A stretch of 64,000 nt of DNA from NCBI GenBank assembly GCA_900319225.1, contig ONNV01000006.1, forward strand, positions 109,274 to 173,273, written 5' to 3'. The notes under the pieces were generated by a model. The model made no database searches, was not told the DNA's origin, and saw only the letters and a list, made by a program, of their open reading frames with translations. How positions within the stretch are numbered: position 1 is the first letter of the stretch; each line of letters opens with the position of its first letter. The translations under genes and the position numbers were made by a program. The DNA is from an uncultured Prevotellaceae bacterium (GTDB taxonomy: Bacteria > Bacteroidota > Bacteroidia > Bacteroidales > Bacteroidaceae). Shown in pieces: positions 38,374 through 46,905 of this stretch.

Positions 38374-38420
38374 AGTCTTAAATGTATTTAGTTAGCAATC
38401 GTTGGCTATCGACAAACGAA

Positions 38421-41400
38421 TTACAGTTGTCCACCTACACCTTTGAACTTCTCCACAAAACTAGCAATCAATTGGAAAACTCTATGCTTCTTTGTCAGAT
38501 AAAGAGGATTCAACGGACTCATCTTGGGCAAAATATTATTGAAGTCCGTTCCATTCTCACTTACATATTCACGCTTAAGAGAACTAGCGATAAAACGCTT
38601 AGCATTTTCTTCATTAAGTTTCTCCTCCGATATTAACTCTGCAGCTTCTTTCTTTTGCTTTGCTTGAGCATATTCAAAGAAAGATTCAATAATGCTCACT
38701 TTATCTTTAATAGTATCTAAATCCGTTTCATTGATGAAATCCACTATAAGACTCTCTTTCGCTCTATTACCCACACTGGCGCGAATCACCCTGCGAATAT
38801 CCTCTACCAAAGCCATCTTATCCGTTGATTTCTTGTTGTGTTCAAATATCAATTCAAGGATATAATCCAGATTTATTTCCTGTGATTTAAGCAAATCCAC
38901 CTCAAAAACGATATCATCCCAATCAATTGCAGACTTCTCAACATCCTTGCCCTCTCTTTCATGCCTCAACCAGTCACGGATATCGTTATAAGTCGATTTA
39001 TAATCCTGAATCTTACGATCATCCAACAAATCAACCTTTTTCAAATCTTGGATATCTGTATCAGTAAGGAAGAATTTATTCTTAAACTCTTCAACACTCT
39101 TTTCATCATTACAATCAATCTGCTTGAAGGCTCTCAGATGAGTGAATTCATCATAATTCTGCAAGACGTTTTCAACACGAAGGTATTCACCGAATAACCT
39201 TACAAATTCTTTTTTATCCTTTTCCGTTTCTATCTCATCTGGATTTGGGAATTTTTCATTCAATTCTTTAACGACATCGACATAACCCCTACAAGCCTCA
39301 CCCGTTGCAGTATCTTTGAAACCTTCCAGATAATCTTTGTAACTACGCTCAAGAACCACATTTCTGGTATTACTGTCACCGAACAATGTAATTGCTTCAA
39401 TAGTATCTTTCTCAAGATCTCTGAAAGTCACAATATTACCAAAAGTCTTTGTGGCGTCATATATTCTATTTGTACGAGAGAATGCCTGTATCAAACCATG
39501 ATAACGCAAGTTCTTGTCAACAAACAAAGTGTTTAGAGTTGGTGCATCAAAGCCAGTAAGAAACATGCCCACTACTATGATAAGATCAACCTCTTTGTTC
39601 TTGACCCTTTTTGCCAAATCACGATAATAGTTTTGAAAGCCCTTACTGTCAACGCCAAAACTAGTCTTGAACAGTTCATTATAGTCATTAATGGCTTTTG
39701 TCAGAAACTCTTTGGCACTACTATCCATTGCAGTGGGTTCAAAACTCTCATCTATGATTTCACCTATTGCAGTTTGTTCCTCATTCGCCGCAAAAGAGAA
39801 AATGGTAGCTATCCTTAAAGGTTTCTCAGTATCTTTCTGAAGACGATTCAATTCCTCATAATAGCATTTGGCTGCATCAACACTATTTACAGCAAACATT
39901 GCATTAAAACCCCTATTAAAGCCAATGCCTCTATGAGTCTTAACATTGTAGTTATCTAGAATATATTGAGATATCTCACTAATTCTAGCCGGATGGAGCA
40001 ATGCTTTCTTATTTTCTGATGCGCTCAGTTTCTTTTCATCCCGCTCCGACTCCATTTTACGGAACTTAGGTCTTACATCATTATAATCAACCTTAAACTT
40101 TAGGACCTTCTCATCACGAATAGCATCAGTGATTACGTATGAATGTAACTCTCTTCCAAATACGCTGCCTGTTGTCTCAGCACCCAACGCATTTTCCGGG
40201 AAAATAGGTGTTCCTGTGAAACCAAATTGATAATATTTCTTGAACTTTTTCTTCAAGTTCATCTGTGCCTCACCAAACTGAGATCTATGAGCCTCATCAA
40301 AAATAAAAACCACATGCTTCTGATAAATAGGAAGATCGTTCTCACTTTTCATCAGATTATTCAATTTTTGAATCGTAGTGACAATAATCTTATTGTCATC
40401 TTTCTCAATATTTCGCTTCAAGCCTGCGGTACTCTCAGAACCATTTACGCTATCAGGTGAAAAACGTTGATATTCCTTCATAGTCTGGTAATCCAGATCT
40501 TTGCGATCCACCACAAAGAATACCTTGTCAATAAAGTCCAAACCTGTTGCAAGGCGAGCCGTTTTAAAACTGGTTAAAGTCTTACCTGATCCCGTCGTGT
40601 GCCATATATACCCTCCACCATCTGGCGTTGACCACTGCTTTGATAGATAAGAACTCTTTATCTTCCATAGTATGCGTTCTGTAGCAGCTATTTGATACGG
40701 TCTCATTATCAGCAAAGTATTGCTTGTATCAAACACAGAATATGTAAGGATGATATTGAGTAAAGTATTCTTCTGGAAGAAAGTTGCGGTAAAATCCTTC
40801 AGGTCTTTGATAAGGCTATTATCAGCTTTGGCCCAATTCATTGTGAAGTCAAAACTGTTCTTATTCCTTTCTACTGTGTTTGCAAAATAACGGCTATCCG
40901 TTCCGTTAGAAATGACAAACAGTTGAATGTATTTGTATAAGGAGCCGGCAGAATTAAAACTTTCTTTACTATACCGATGAACCTGATTAAAAGCCTCACG
41001 TATGGCGACACCTCGTTTTTTCAATTCAACCTGCACCATCGGTAAACCATTGACCAGTATGGTGACATCATAACGGTTTAACTGTTCCCCTTCTTGGGTT
41101 ATTTGCCGGACTACTTGAACCTTATTCCTGGCAAGATCCTTCTTGTCTACCAGATATATATTCTTTATATGACCATCATCAAAAACAAAGTCATAAATAT
41201 AGTCATCCTGTATTTTCCTTGTTTTCTCAACAAGAGTATCACCTGGCTTATCCAAATATTCATCCTGATAACGATGCCATTCATCGTCCGTAAAAACAAC
41301 ATCATTAAGAGTTTGCAACTGAATTCTTACATTAGCCAGTAGCTCATCAGACGTAGAAAGATCTGGCAGATATTCATATCCCTGATTACACAAATCCTCA

Positions 41401-41528
41401 ATAAACTCACGTTCCAATGATGCTTCTGTCTGATAAGCAACAGGAGATTCATTAATGGTATAGTACTTGTCATATTTATCAAGTACTATAAAGTTGTTGG
41501 ATTCCGCTATCGTGTTATACTGAGCCAT
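38421..41528 (-). CDS. hsdR: Type I restriction enzyme R subunit (type IC, EcoR124I-like)
   Basis: The 1035-residue protein opens [15 protein letters not shown], as in the type IC subunit of EcoR124I, and has nearly the same length. The nuclease site is D154...E168-x-K170 (DVTILVNG / VQVELKK), with the spacing of EcoR124I Asp151/Glu165/Lys167. The translocase motor has [15 protein letters not shown] (Walker A), [12 protein letters not shown] (DEAH box) and later helicase motifs ([27 protein letters not shown]). It moves DNA and cuts it at a distance from unmethylated sites. The gene overlaps the end of prrC by 14 bp. Composition is AT-rich. Confidence 0.97.
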
Positions 41529-42717
41529 TATCGTTCACTTCGTTAGTTGGTTCTTCCTTGAAATGATATTTTTCTTTGATTTCTTTTACAAGAAAACTTA
41601 ATACCCTTTTGTCATTATCATCAATAAATGAAATCTCTTCGCCCGAATGCTTTCCGTGACTACATAAATTTATAATTCGGTTATAATATGCCTCTTGTGA
41701 GTCATTCGGCAACAAATCCTTCCATTTTGAATACCCCAAAAAGGTTGATGCTTTCTCTAATATTTGACGTAAGAAATTATAATGATATTTCTTTATCTCA
41801 CCATCTTGTATTGCTTTTTCTAATTCCGTCAAAAGATAAAGATGATATGAAAAAGGAGAATCTTCTGTTTGTACTAACAAATTATATGTACCGTCGTCCA
41901 ATTTTTCTAAACGATTCTTTACAGAGTGCTTAGGTTTATATCCATATCTTTTATCTGGATTATTAAACTCGTTGTATAAAACATTATAAAATAATGGATT
42001 ATGTGTAGTAATTATGTATTTCAAATCTGATTGACTTGATTTAATCAGTTCTGCAATATTAACAGCCAATTCAATCAAATGATTCTCATCCAATGAACTA
42101 ACAGGGTCATCAATAAAAACATACTTCAATTCATCAAACTGATTAGTTCCTCTCTCTTCTGTTTCCGGTATATTCAATGTTTCGACTACTTGTTCAAGCA
42201 GACTATAAAACACACACCATATCAAACAACTCTCTTCTCCTTTTGAAATCTTAATATTTGTCTCTATTGTTTCATTTCCTCCACTAATGAAAAACAATAT
42301 CTCGGAATAGGCTGGAACAACTATATCACGACCATTTTCATCCTTAGCAGTGTACTCTTGATTAAAAACGGGAGTTAGCTTATCACTTGTATAATGCTGA
42401 AAATGAGTTACTATATTTCTCTCTTGCCCTTGTTCCTTAAGAACCCAATCTGTAAAACTATTGGGACGTATTATTAATTTTCTGTTCGTATCCTCATCCA
42501 AGTCATTATCCCAATAAAACAAATCTTCAGTATATGCATTGTAATACAGAACTTTTGTCTTTTCTTCAGCATCTTCACCTCCATTCTTAGGTGCAATAAG
42601 TTCCTTAAACTCACGCGAAAGACGAGTTTTCCCAACACCATTAAAGGCATAAATCAACTGAACCTTTTTATCGGTATTCTTAAGCGTTTGAGCAATTTCT
42701 TTTAATGATAGTCCCAT
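41515..42717 (-). CDS. prrC: PrrC anticodon nuclease (restriction-linked tRNA ribonuclease)
   Basis: The ATG at 42717 gives 400 residues (E. coli PrrC about 396); a GTG at 42726 is less likely. The N-terminal ATPase has [14 protein letters not shown] (Walker A, 24-37), [16 protein letters not shown] (58-73), the SKGEES signature (158-163), [10 protein letters not shown] (Walker B, 201-210) and TTHNP. The C-terminal part has Arg317-x3-Glu321 in [15 protein letters not shown] and His354 in NLCSHGKH. This matches in order and spacing the Arg320/Glu324/His356 triad known for PrrC, which cuts tRNA-Lys at the wobble base. Its place between hsdS and hsdR is that of the E. coli prr locus. It should be held silent by the intact restriction complex. 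The tRNA target here is not known. Confidence 0.85.
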
Positions 42718-42718
42718 A

Positions 42719-43852
42719 TCATGCACTTAATTTATATTCTGAGAATGAAAGGAGTTTATTCCTATAATACTCATACAGTTCCTTAATCGCCATGATTTCT
42801 GCAGGTAAACCTTCAACCATATCAAATACCAACGAATCAAATTTGTCCAATAGAGTGACAATACGGTGTTGCTCAGCAAGATCAGGAACTGGGATTATTA
42901 GGTTCTCTATGGCAGTTCTTGCCAAACGTGGAACACTTGATTTTCTTACCTGAGATAATAAGTATTTTTGTTTGGTCATAATATAGTGATATATGTATCT
43001 GTTGATTACTAATTCTTTAGCATCAATAGTAACACAATCATCAGCAGCCCAAAAATCCGAGCCAGAAAAACCAATACTACCAGCAGCTCCACCAACAATA
43101 ATAAAAGTCATTCCACCCTTTCGATTGCTCGTCTCTTTATAGCCAAGAGGTGTTAAGCAATTCTGAAAGACAGGATACAATCCATGTTCTGCCAAGTTGC
43201 TCTTTACCACACGGACACCTCTTTTTATTTCCGTTATTTCACTCATTTTCATCCACGTTACGCTTCGCCTGCCCCCCCCTATTTTATTGAATGTCAATAA
43301 TTTATTTCTATAAAACTCGTATTGCTCGCGCCTCGCTTGCAGCTCCGCTTGCAGCTCCGCTGCAAGATTCTTAAAATTATCAAGTATGCAAGCAATTTCT
43401 TCCTGTACTTCTGGGTGTGGTACAGGTATTTCTATCTGAGAATATTTTGAGATCCAATGACGTGTATGATCTACAGCCTCAAACGGAATACACTCCATCG
43501 CATAATAAATATACCTAAAACAACCATTGAAACTCTTTTTTGGTCTCAACATTTTCATTGCTGAACTTTTAACTTTAAAATCAAAATCAACCCAATGAAA
43601 GGAGGTCGTAAAATCATCGAATATGATAGTCGGATTATCTTTATTAGCCTTATAAATACCTTTATTTTCATTAGTGAAGCCTAATATAAATGTTTGTCCT
43701 GCAGTAAGAACTGGTATTTTGTACCTATCATCATACTCTGTACTATTAACTATATATCGATTTGGTTGTTCATAATCCAACAAATCACCCAGCCTTTTAT
43801 ACTCCACCCCATCAGGACAGTATTTCTTTATCAATTCTTCCAGTCTACTCAT
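42719..43852 (-). CDS. hsdS: Type I restriction specificity subunit with two possible switches
   Basis: The 377-residue protein has two target-recognition domains, about 15-150 and 200-340, each followed by a conserved helix: [20 protein letters not shown] and [16 protein letters not shown]. The first helix is encoded by two perfect 12-bp repeats (AELQ units), as in EcoR124I where such a repeat sets the spacer length of the DNA site. Between the domains a G8 tract encodes GGG near residue 193. Gain or loss of one G would leave a one-domain protein; an ATG just downstream (WMKMSE) could restart the second half. It overlaps the DUF1016 gene by 4 bp and is separated from the prrC ATG by one base. 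Confidence 0.95.
43272..43279 (-). repeat. G8 homopolymer tract in hsdS
   Basis: Eight C on the plus strand (G in coding sense) in an AT-rich gene, at the junction between the first spacer helix and the second target-recognition domain. Confidence 0.95.
43337..43360 (-). repeat. 12-bp tandem repeat in the hsdS spacer helix
   Basis: Two perfect copies of GCGGAGCTGCAA (coding sense), each encoding AELQ, with a third partial GCG. GC-rich against an AT-rich background. Confidence 0.95.
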
Positions 43853-44976
43853 AATTCACCTATCTTATCTGATTGTAGATTAAGTAATGATCTCTGCCTT
43901 TCTATTTCCTCTTCAAGTTCTTTTTCTGTAGGAAGATATGCCATGTATTTTGAGGCAAAGAGCTGTTTATTTTCATTTAAAACAGAATAATGTGCTATAG
44001 TTTTATCCGTCTCAGTACAAAGCAATATGCCAATTGTAGGATTATCATCACTGCGTTTCTTCAAATCATCATACATACGCACATACATATCAAGTTGTCC
44101 AATGTCCTGATGGGTTATTGCATGTGTTTTAAGTTCAACAATTACAAAGCATTTGAGGATGTAATTGTAAAAAACAAGATCAACAAAAAAATCCTGTGTT
44201 TCAGTTCGGATTAATTGCTGGCGGGCAACGAAAGAAAAGCCCTTGCCAAGTTCAAGCAGAAAATCCTGCATTTGGTCTATTATAGCCTGTTCTAACACCG
44301 TTTCTGTATATCCCTTGTTGCCAGGCAAGCCCAAGAACTCAAGTACTGACGGATTTTTAATAAACTCCATCTTGTCATTTTGTAAGGCTCCAGTTTTTTC
44401 TTGCATCTCCCTTTTTACGGGTTCTTCTATTTGAGAAGAAAGCAATCTACGGTAATATAGTGTAGAAATATTACGGTCAAGAGTACGGTAAGACCACATC
44501 TGTTCAGACGCCTCTTTTAGATACCAATTACGTTCTTCATCATTTGTTACGCGCATAAGCCTCTCGTAATGGCTCCAACTTAAAATTGATTTTTCAAATT
44601 CTGCCGACACCGCCGGCAGTTTTTGCAAAACAGATTCTGCCGACACTGTCGGCATAATTGGCAACTCCCTGAACATCAAATAGAACTGTCTGAATTTCCA
44701 GAGATTTCGCTCCGAATAGCCTTTCCCAAATTCTGCAGTCAAGGATTCAGAAGCCAATTTGATTACTTGTTTTCCATACTCGGCGCGCGCTTTTCCCTTT
44801 TGTTCCTGCGTAACAATTCTCTGACCCATTAGCCAATTTTGCCTGATATTTGCAAGATTAACCGCCGAATACGCCATCTTTCTGGAAGAGATAACAATAT
44901 CTCTCAGTTCAGAGAGAAACTGTGTATCTAACTCCAAAAGAGTTTGTTTTTCAATTTTGTCAGTTTCGTTTTTCAT
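43849..44976 (-). CDS. DUF1016 (YhcG-like) PD-(D/E)XK nuclease-domain protein
   Basis: The 375-residue product has the DUF1016 N-terminal helical domain (residues 15-180: YSAVNLANIRQNWLMGQRIV, YSERNLWKFRQFYLMF, LSWSHYERLMRV). The C-terminal PD-(D/E)XK domain shows FLGLPG, FVARQQLIRTETQDFFVDLVFYN and CFVIVELKTHAITHQDIGQLDMYVRMYD (Asp then ELK). Such proteins are common partners inside type I loci, but their role is not settled; DNA end processing or extra restriction is inferred. It is 4 bp after hsdM and overlaps hsdS by 4 bp. Two short palindromes in the linker (44601-44654) encode the P(T/A)VSAE repeat. Confidence 0.9.
   Translation of the reverse strand: MKNETDKIEKQTLLELDTQFLSELRDIVISSRKMAYSAVNLANIRQNWLMGQRIVTQEQKGKARAEYGKQVIKLASESLTAEFGKGYSERNLWKFRQFYLMFRELPIMPTVSAESVLQKLPAVSAEFEKSILSWSHYERLMRVTNDEERNWYLKEASEQMWSYRTLDRNISTLYYRRLLSSQIEEPVKREMQEKTGALQNDKMEFIKNPSVLEFLGLPGNKGYTETVLEQAIIDQMQDFLLELGKGFSFVARQQLIRTETQDFFVDLVFYNYILKCFVIVELKTHAITHQDIGQLDMYVRMYDDLKKRSDDNPTIGILLCTETDKTIAHYSVLNENKQLFASKYMAYLPTEKELEEEIERQRSLLNLQSDKIGEL
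44601..44654. repeat. Paired palindromes in the DUF1016 linker
   Basis: CTGCCG...CGGCAG (44601-44619) and the perfect TGCCGACA-C-TGTCGGCA (44638-44654) are near copies 18 bp apart, GC-rich in an AT-rich gene. Confidence 0.75.
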
Positions 44977-44980
44977 TGCA

Positions 44981-46531
44981 TCAATTTTCTAATTCCATAA
45001 TAATCTTATCTATCTCAGCCCTCAGTTGATTCTCTTTGGCCACTATTCTCTTGATTCGTTCATTGAGTTCCTTAATATCAACCTCTTTACGAGTCTCTTT
45101 GGCTTCAACGTAACTGCTGACTGAAAGATTGTAATCATTCTCTGCAATCTGTTTATTATCTACTGATTTAGCTACGCCCTCTATATCCTCTTTTTTGTCA
45201 AACAAATCAACTATTCTACTTATGTGAGTATCAGATTCGAGAATATTGTTGTTAGTTTCTTTTTTATAGAAATCCGTTCCCGATGCATCTATGAACTGGG
45301 TTCTTGTATCAGTTTTATGTTTAGACAGCACCAATATATTAACGGCTATTGATGTTCCATAAAATAGATTGGGAGCTAAAGCAATTACAGATTCCACAAA
45401 ATTATTATCAACCAGATATTTCCTGATTTTCTGTTCAGCACCACCACGATAAAAAATGCCAGGAAAGCATACTATGGCCGCCCGTCCCTTGCCAGAGAGA
45501 TAACTCAACGCATGCAAAACAAATGCAAAATCAGCTTTAGACTTGGGAGCCAATACACCTGCCGGTGCAAAGCGTTCATCATTAATCAGAGTAGGATCAT
45601 CGGAACCTATCCAATTAACTGAATAAGGAGGATTTGATACTATTGCATCAAACGGTTTATCATCCTTAAACTGAGGATTCAACAAAGTATTCCCCAAAGC
45701 TATATTAAACTTGTCGTAGTTTATGTTATGCAAGAACATATTCATACGGGCAAGATTATATGTAGTATGATTTATTTCCTGTCCCCAAAAACCATCTTCA
45801 ATAATATGGTCATCAAATTGCTTTTTTGCCTGCAACAACAAAGAGCCGGAACCAGCAGCAGGATCATATATCTTGTTTATAGTTGTCTGGCCATGTATTG
45901 CTAACTTAGCAATGAGTTCTGATACACACTGAGGTGTAAAAAATTCACCACCAGATTTGCCAGCATTAGCAGCATAATTATGAATTAAAAATTCGTATGC
46001 ATCACCGAACAAATCTATTTTATTATCCTCAAAACTACCAAAGGTCAAGCCTTCAACACCTTTAATAACTGCAGCCAATCTACTGTTCTTGTTTTCTACC
46101 GTATTACCTAAGCGGGTACTGGTAGTATCAAAATCAGCAAATAAGCCCTTTATATCATTCTCAGAATCATAGCCAACTGCAGAACTTTCTATAGAATCAA
46201 ATATCTTTCTTAACTCCGTATTAAGATTGGGATTAGTATTAGCTGTCTTAGCTATATTTGAAAACAACTGACTGGGATAAATAAAATACCCTTTAGTCTT
46301 TATTGCATCATCCCTTATTTCTGGAGTTATCACGCTATCTGGCAATTTAGCATAATCTATGTTTTCATCCCCACCTTCAATGTAGTTGGTAAAATTTTCA
46401 CTGATAAAACGATAAAACAGAGTACCAAGGACAAACTGTTTAAAGTCCCAACCATCTACAGCACCACGAACCTCGTTTGCTATTTTCCATATTTGAGCCT
46501 GCAATTGGACTCTTTGTTCTATACTCGTCAT
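44981..46531 (-). CDS. hsdM: Type I restriction-modification methyltransferase subunit
   Basis: The 516-residue protein has the N-terminal helical domain of HsdM ([19 protein letters not shown]), the SAM-binding motif [12 protein letters not shown] and the catalytic NPPYS of N6-adenine methyltransferases, with [10 protein letters not shown] before them. Length matches EcoR124I HsdM (520). It methylates adenine in the target chosen by HsdS and forms the M2S core. It follows the small HTH gene by 30 bp and is followed by the DUF1016 gene 4 bp on. Confidence 0.97.
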
Positions 46532-46561
46532 TAAACTATACTAACAAATGAAGTGATACCA

Positions 46562-46768
46562 TTATTTGATTGACGATGATACTATAAGATTCTGAACATC
46601 TACTTCCAACAAAGTTGAGATCTTTACCAATGTAGCCAAATCAGGTTGTGCCACATTAGAGCACCATTTAGATACTGTTGACGGATTCTTGCCTAATTGT
46701 TCAGCCAACCATTTACCTGTTCTTTTCTTCTCAACAAGAACAATTTTGAGTCGATTAATATCCTCCAT
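46562..46768 (-). CDS. Small XRE-type HTH regulator of the hsd locus
   Basis: The ATG at 46768 gives 68 residues; a TTG at 46777 is also in frame. The helix-turn-helix reads KWLAEQLGKNPSTVSKWCSN, with the XRE/Cro pattern continuing into PDLATLVKISTLLEVDVQNLI. It is the promoter-proximal gene of the hsd operon (TATCTTTG at 46794) and probably controls it, as controller proteins do in other restriction loci. Confidence 0.85.
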   Translation of the reverse strand: MEDINRLKIVLVEKKRTGKWLAEQLGKNPSTVSKWCSNVAQPDLATLVKISTLLEVDVQNLIVSSSIK

Positions 46769-46793
46769 TGCAATCAATAAATTGAACTAAAAG

Positions 46794-46801
46794 CAAAGAT
46801 A
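46794..46801 (-). promoter_or_regulatory. Bacteroidales -7 element of the hsd operon
   Basis: TATCTTTG on the minus strand, 25 bp upstream of the HTH gene. Confidence 0.55.
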
Positions 46802-46845
46802 TTGAAATGACTGAAAAAAGACATATAATCACATCAATATTTTCA

Positions 46846-46884
46846 GAAAAAAAATGAGATGGTCACAGATGCAACCATCTCATT
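46846..46884 (-). terminator. Intrinsic terminator of the flotillin unit
   Basis: An 11-bp stem (AATGAGATGGT / ACCATCTCATT) is followed on the minus strand by eight T residues. It separates the flotillin genes from the hsd operon. Confidence 0.88.
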
Positions 46885-46905
46885 AAAGGCCAAAAGAATG
46901 TTTAG

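Follow-up and report, generated by a model that had tools for sequence, protein, structure and literature searches.

The window, that is, the whole 64,000-nucleotide stretch analysed here, carries a restriction-modification locus in which five genes lie head to tail on one strand in the order hsdM-[DUF1016]-hsdS-prrC-hsdR (Table 1). The prrC ATG stands 1 base past the hsdS stop, and hsdR begins within the 3' end of prrC, the two genes sharing 14 bases. Because the five genes are packed in this way on a single strand, they probably form one operon. Promoter-like and terminator-like sites at the operon showed no excess over shuffled sequences, and the small gene just upstream of hsdM, encoding a Cro/CI-type HTH protein, is a possible regulator. 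HsdM and HsdR matched the corresponding subunits of EcoR124 with 880 bits (PDB 7bst) and 1670 bits (PDB 2w00), respectively, and by these sequence matches we class the operon around prrC as type IC. Coordinates and subunit matches thus agree with the initial annotation, which had placed prrC between hsdS and hsdR of a type IC locus.

Table 1. Genes and catalytic codons of the prrC locus, in window coordinates.
Feature	Position	Strand	Evidence or remark
hsdR, type IC restriction subunit	38421..41528	-	ELK168, GSGKT and DEAH present
prrC	41515..42717	-	ABC-ATPase domain and C-terminal anticodon-nuclease domain; ATG start, GTG alternative at 42726
R-x3-E...H triad codons, R320 to H357 (GTG numbering), also R350	41656..41769	-	sequence, alignments
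hsdS, type I specificity subunit	42719..43852	-	two Methylase_S stretches
DUF1016/YhcG_C PDDEXK nuclease gene, hsdM/hsdS gap	43849..44976	-	Pfam, PADLOC, motif
hsdM, type IC methyltransferase subunit	44981..46531	-	DPAAGSG and NPPY present
Small Cro/CI-type HTH gene, 71 aa from TTG	46562..46777	-	just upstream of hsdM

The prrC frame is open on the minus strand over 41515..42726, which gives 403 residues from the GTG or, with the ATG at 42717 as start, 400. Of the two codons the ATG is the more likely start, because its Met, residue 4 when counted from the GTG, falls in a column at least 90% conserved across a 41-sequence alignment that includes the window protein. The ATG start, and with it the numbering R317/E321/H354 of the initial annotation, is probably correct; counted from the GTG, the same residues are R320, E324 and H357.

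The operon region (38374-46905) is flanked by a dehydrogenase gene and a flotillin gene. Since the flotillin gene directly adjoins a dehydrogenase homologue (63-95% identity) in 7 of 17 relatives from the genus, the operon was probably inserted at this position. In the sister genome G422 (L237), 88 bases separate the dehydrogenase gene (95% identical) from the flotillin gene (98%), where the window has about 8.5 kb with the operon, and this empty site suggests that the operon was acquired. The flotillin gene was not seen in longer stretches from seven other relatives (L230-L236); the last two of the 17 (L212 and L216) were examined over a shorter stretch than these seven. We also considered the dehydrogenase/flotillin site as a defence hotspot, an idea that was dropped because the three genes scanned in the 7.2-kb stretch between the two genes in L229 encode a glycosyl hydrolase, a DUF5128 beta-propeller protein and a DUF4956 protein.

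Sequence and predicted structure of the prrC product

All the ABC-ATPase motifs claimed earlier for this gene are intact in the translated frame: AFNGVGKT (27), SKGEES (161) and the Walker B motif (204) were found, and the set is complete (Walker A, ABC signature, Walker B/D-loop and linchpin His). The protein matched the PADLOC PrrC model (PDLC02360) with 478 bits (3.5e-144) over residues 3-398, and scored 62.7 bits for Pfam AAA_13, whose cut-off is 36, so its identity as PrrC goes beyond chance. NCBIfam models gave no match at E<=0.001 and PDB sequences gave zero matches at E<=1. The PADLOC score, together with 49% identity to an E. coli 'anticodon nuclease', upholds the earlier naming of the gene as prrC.

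The reference that we used for E. coli PrrC/EcoprrI, the E. coli B1 locus (L114), encodes a protein of similar length (396 aa) that is annotated 'anticodon nuclease', sits between hsdS and hsdR and is 48.6% identical to the window PrrC. The two loci share the order hsdM-hsdS-prrC-hsdR and type IC-like partners, and their PrrC proteins share the ABC motifs, whereas the window has an added DUF1016 gene in the hsdM/hsdS gap, and its host is a member of the Bacteroidota that has two or more lysine tRNAs. Aligned residue by residue, D289, R320, E324, R350 and H357 of the window protein correspond to D287, R320, E324, R349 and H356 of E. coli PrrC. The proposed equivalence of Arg317/Glu321/His354 with E. 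coli Arg320/Glu324/His356, whose catalytic-triad roles are described in PMC3014915, was therefore borne out.

We then looked for a C-terminal domain that would not align with PrrC and for loss of the triad in homologues, and found neither: R320, E324 and H357 were unchanged in 105 of 105 aligned proteins, the window protein counted. Also identical in all 105 were the linchpin His242, the lysine of Walker A and the aspartates of Walker B, and in the 41-row alignment the block Y61-D75 hardly varied. The count of 105 excludes the window's own two records and the loci L090, L099 and L102, whose reading frames are over-long, and eight weaker loci (L025-L031, L033), which gave no match at 1e-10, lie outside this alignment.

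The full-length model (mean pLDDT 79.6, pTM 0.68) matched the ABC heads of Rad50, SMC and PtuA among solved structures and contained no long coiled-coil insert. Modelled alone, the C-terminal 118 residues formed a helical bundle (pLDDT 81). A Foldseek search with this nuclease domain had no match that reached E<=0.001; 4nqf, a HEPN entry, ranked fourth with an E of 2.0, its probability of 0.44 being the top among the 50 rows listed. The window PrrC contains R350-x6-H357, a spacing found in HEPN RNases, for which an R-x4-6-H rule is given in PMC3710099. A tentative assignment of the C-terminal domain to HEPN would come only from the literature (PMC3710099) and the R-x6-H spacing.

Loci of PrrC relatives

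A search of genome contigs confirmed 450 relatives, and loci were counted for the best 80 of the 450, all from named genomes; taken from the top of that list, these counts describe close relatives. Among the 80, an HsdR homologue was present at every locus, though a few have just a fragment of it where the contig ends, and an HsdM homologue was present at 74. The longest frame ending near the prrC start was hsdS in 76 of the 80; three loci had a 704-737-aa HsdM-like frame upstream of prrC, probably an hsdM-hsdS fusion, and one had no flank. Downstream of prrC, HsdR came first in 75 of these 80 loci and another gene in 3, while no frame was assigned in 2.

In a phylum sample of 395 genomes, 34 matched PrrC at E<=0.001, and 23 of the 34 did so at E<=1e-30. 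HsdR of at least 75% identity was found in 13 of the 395 (a partial 67% hit in G131 was not counted among them), with a close PrrC in 8 and none in the other 5. No close PrrC was seen in this sample outside the 13. The genus sample gave three matching genomes out of 37, namely the host, G423 (33% identity) and G408 (very weak, E=6.8e-4). PrrC matched 113 of 72,556 plasmid records and none of 50,697 phage records, and a DNA-level search with prrC gave matches in 20 of 5,426 E. coli genomes, none of which covered as much as half of the gene. The divergent PrrC of G423 lies near a contig start, next to an HsdM that is itself very divergent, with 24% identity (L190 1-3132).

A second group of 16 loci (L010-L024, L032) encodes PrrC proteins 30-37% identical to that of the window, beside a different hsdM; the eight of these proteins that were scanned all matched the PADLOC PrrC model (282-443 bits). 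Regions were covered for 15 of the 16 loci, and the order hsdR-hsdS-prrC-hsdM was found in 12 (L178-L189), with small extra frames in some; in L190-L192, two of which start at the contig beginning, the complete order was not visible. Pfam identified four of the five upstream frames scanned as HsdS and gave no match for the fifth, which is 133 aa long and lies where a contig begins; in the remaining distant loci hsdS was assigned mostly from position and length. A quick tree, to be read with a long-branch warning, split the proteins of hsdM-hsdS-prrC-hsdR loci, including those of the window and E. coli, from the 16 (SH-aLRT 97). In the residue alignment with E. coli PrrC, 12 of the 16 lacked the equivalent of Asp287 and 10 that of R349; the wobble-base contact may therefore differ in the distant proteins without the Asp287 equivalent.

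Could these distant loci be a new branch of PrrC? We make no such claim, because PMC11555353 already describes Klebsiella PrrC170, which is 35% identical to EcoPrrC, is encoded in the order HsdR, HsdS, PrrC, HsdM, targets tRNA-Lys and is active against at least T1 and T7. By its gene order, PrrC170 probably belongs with the L178-L189 loci. PrrC170 and these loci have in common with the window that PrrC follows hsdS, but differ from it in operon order and in an hsdR and hsdM that are only distantly similar to those of the window. With the published result on PrrC170 (PMC11555353), a tRNA-Lys target is known both for a distant relative and for the E. coli type. The 19 PrrC orthologues known at the time of PMC3014915 are given there as all linked to type Ic genes.

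Predicted latency, release and target of the putative nuclease

Very probably, the prrC product is the PrrC anticodon nuclease of a type IC restriction-modification operon and is most likely kept inactive on HsdMSR; a latent tRNA-Lys anticodon nuclease silenced by the restriction complex is the best interpretation of the locus. As carried over from E. coli PrrC and Klebsiella PrrC170, the protein would stay inactive on the HsdMSR complex, would be released when the restriction system is attacked, and would then cut tRNA-Lys. The phage peptide to which the initial annotation ascribed this release is T4 Stp.

E. coli PrrC is kept silent by its restriction-modification enzyme; EcoR124I antibodies pull down PrrC and PrrC antiserum pulls down HsdR, and its activators are Stp, GTP and DNA with cleavable sites, while dTTP acts on PrrC itself (PMC3014915). 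The reviews PMC3874165 and PMC12707154 give the same account. Functional support by descent comes from E. coli PrrC (PMC3014915), with which the window protein groups in the tree, and from PrrC170 (PMC11555353), both of which act on tRNA-Lys. Comparative support comes from the invariance of the catalytic residues in the aligned proteins and from the position of prrC after hsdS in both operon orders; given this position, the contact that would silence PrrC is reasonably sought on the HsdS side. The window prrC is an ordinary copy of a widespread back-up defence that has already been described; with it, this well-studied guard system is recorded from one further Bacteroidota genome, and the accepted picture stays as it was.

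The Foldseek result on the isolated nuclease domain, with 4nqf at E=2.0, counts against the PrrC reading, and the best solved-structure matches of the model, Rad50 and other ABC heads, would also suit another kind of ABC protein, RloC-like or otherwise of the Rad50 type, whose signal is DNA ends and not the restriction complex. RloC does share with the window protein an ABC ATPase and an R-x3-E...H nuclease, but it is double in size, bears a zinc-hook coiled coil and is seldom linked to type I loci (PMC2610378). At 400-403 aa the window protein falls within the 341-416 aa given for PrrC proteins and not within the 658-897 aa of RloC (PMC2610378), its model has no long coiled-coil insert, and HsdR adjoins at all of the best 80 loci out of 450, so that we regard an RloC-like protein as extremely improbable. 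It is also very unlikely that prrC is decayed or silent and its protein no longer acting. The gene does look acquired, and in the genus sample only 3 genomes of 37 matched, but its frame is open with all motifs and the triad, the hsdR, hsdS and hsdM frames are open too, hsdR and hsdM keep their motifs, and prrC remains tightly packed between its neighbours, 1 base after the hsdS stop and overlapping the hsdR start.

For the PrrC nuclease itself, the choice of tRNA has to be weighed. The host genome (84.7% complete) gave 40 tRNA matches, with 30 loci scanned, and its lysine tRNAs include one tRNA-Lys(UUU) and one tRNA-Lys(CUU). The two genes, at L129 1501-1576 and L120 1500-1573, differ in anticodon-stem strength.

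Read by eye, the anticodon loop of the host tRNA-Lys(UUU), CTTTTAA, is the same as in E. coli, whereas its anticodon stem (CATCC/GGATG) has a higher G-C content than the E. coli stem (GTTGA/TCAAT). This counts against the main reading, since a stable anticodon stem inhibits E. coli PrrC, for which the anticodon and the modifications of U34 also matter (PMC3014915). A nuclease with the same guard role could have another main target, either tRNA-Lys(CUU), whose stem (ATTGA/TCAAT, by the same reading) is weak and near that of E. coli tRNA-Lys, or another tRNA; substrates may indeed vary between PrrC proteins according to PMC3014915. Such a shift is nevertheless unlikely: Asp287 probably contacts the modified wobble base (PMC3014915), and D289, which aligns with it, points to U34, while the more distant PrrC170 still acts on tRNA-Lys (PMC11555353). 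Because the Asp287 equivalent is kept, we favour tRNA-Lys(UUU) as the predicted target of the window PrrC.

The gene between hsdM and hsdS

The product of the gene in the hsdM/hsdS gap, which the initial annotation does not mention, matched DUF1016_N and YhcG_C in Pfam and the PADLOC candidate PDC-S02, and contains a D...E-x-K pattern. Among the best 80 of the 450 relatives, 9 of the 74 loci with both hsdM and hsdR carry an extra gene of at least 120 aa in this gap, the passengers being DUF1016 in L035, RhuM-like in five loci (L041, L053, L054, L087, L094), Bro-N in L064 and Fic-like in two (L098, L109). The prrC/hsdR gap is occupied by DUF1016 in L087, Fic in L090, a Bro-N relative in L094 and an unassigned frame in L113. 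These calls were made by Pfam for L035, L041, L053, L064, L090 and L098, and by similarity for the others.

PrrC-like genes accompanied by RhuM-like or Fic/Doc-like toxin genes have already been described in PMC3710099, so that modular sites like the hsdM/hsdS slot are already known, and DUF1016 is one more passenger. Our literature search for PrrC together with DUF1016 found no paper naming both, and the presence of the DUF1016 gene in this slot is mildly unusual. A guard unit of three effectors, namely restriction, tRNA cutting by PrrC and a DUF1016/YhcG PDDEXK nuclease co-produced from the hsdM/hsdS slot and likewise controlled by the restriction complex, with the tRNA target moved towards tRNA-Lys(CUU), is conceivable but unlikely. 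In the phylum sample, DUF1016-like frames were found ahead of hsdS in L005, where the locus end truncates the frame, in the hsdR/hsdS gap of L185 and downstream of hsdR in L195. The host genome itself has two further YhcG_C matches (C10:79218-79646 and C5:350613-351059).
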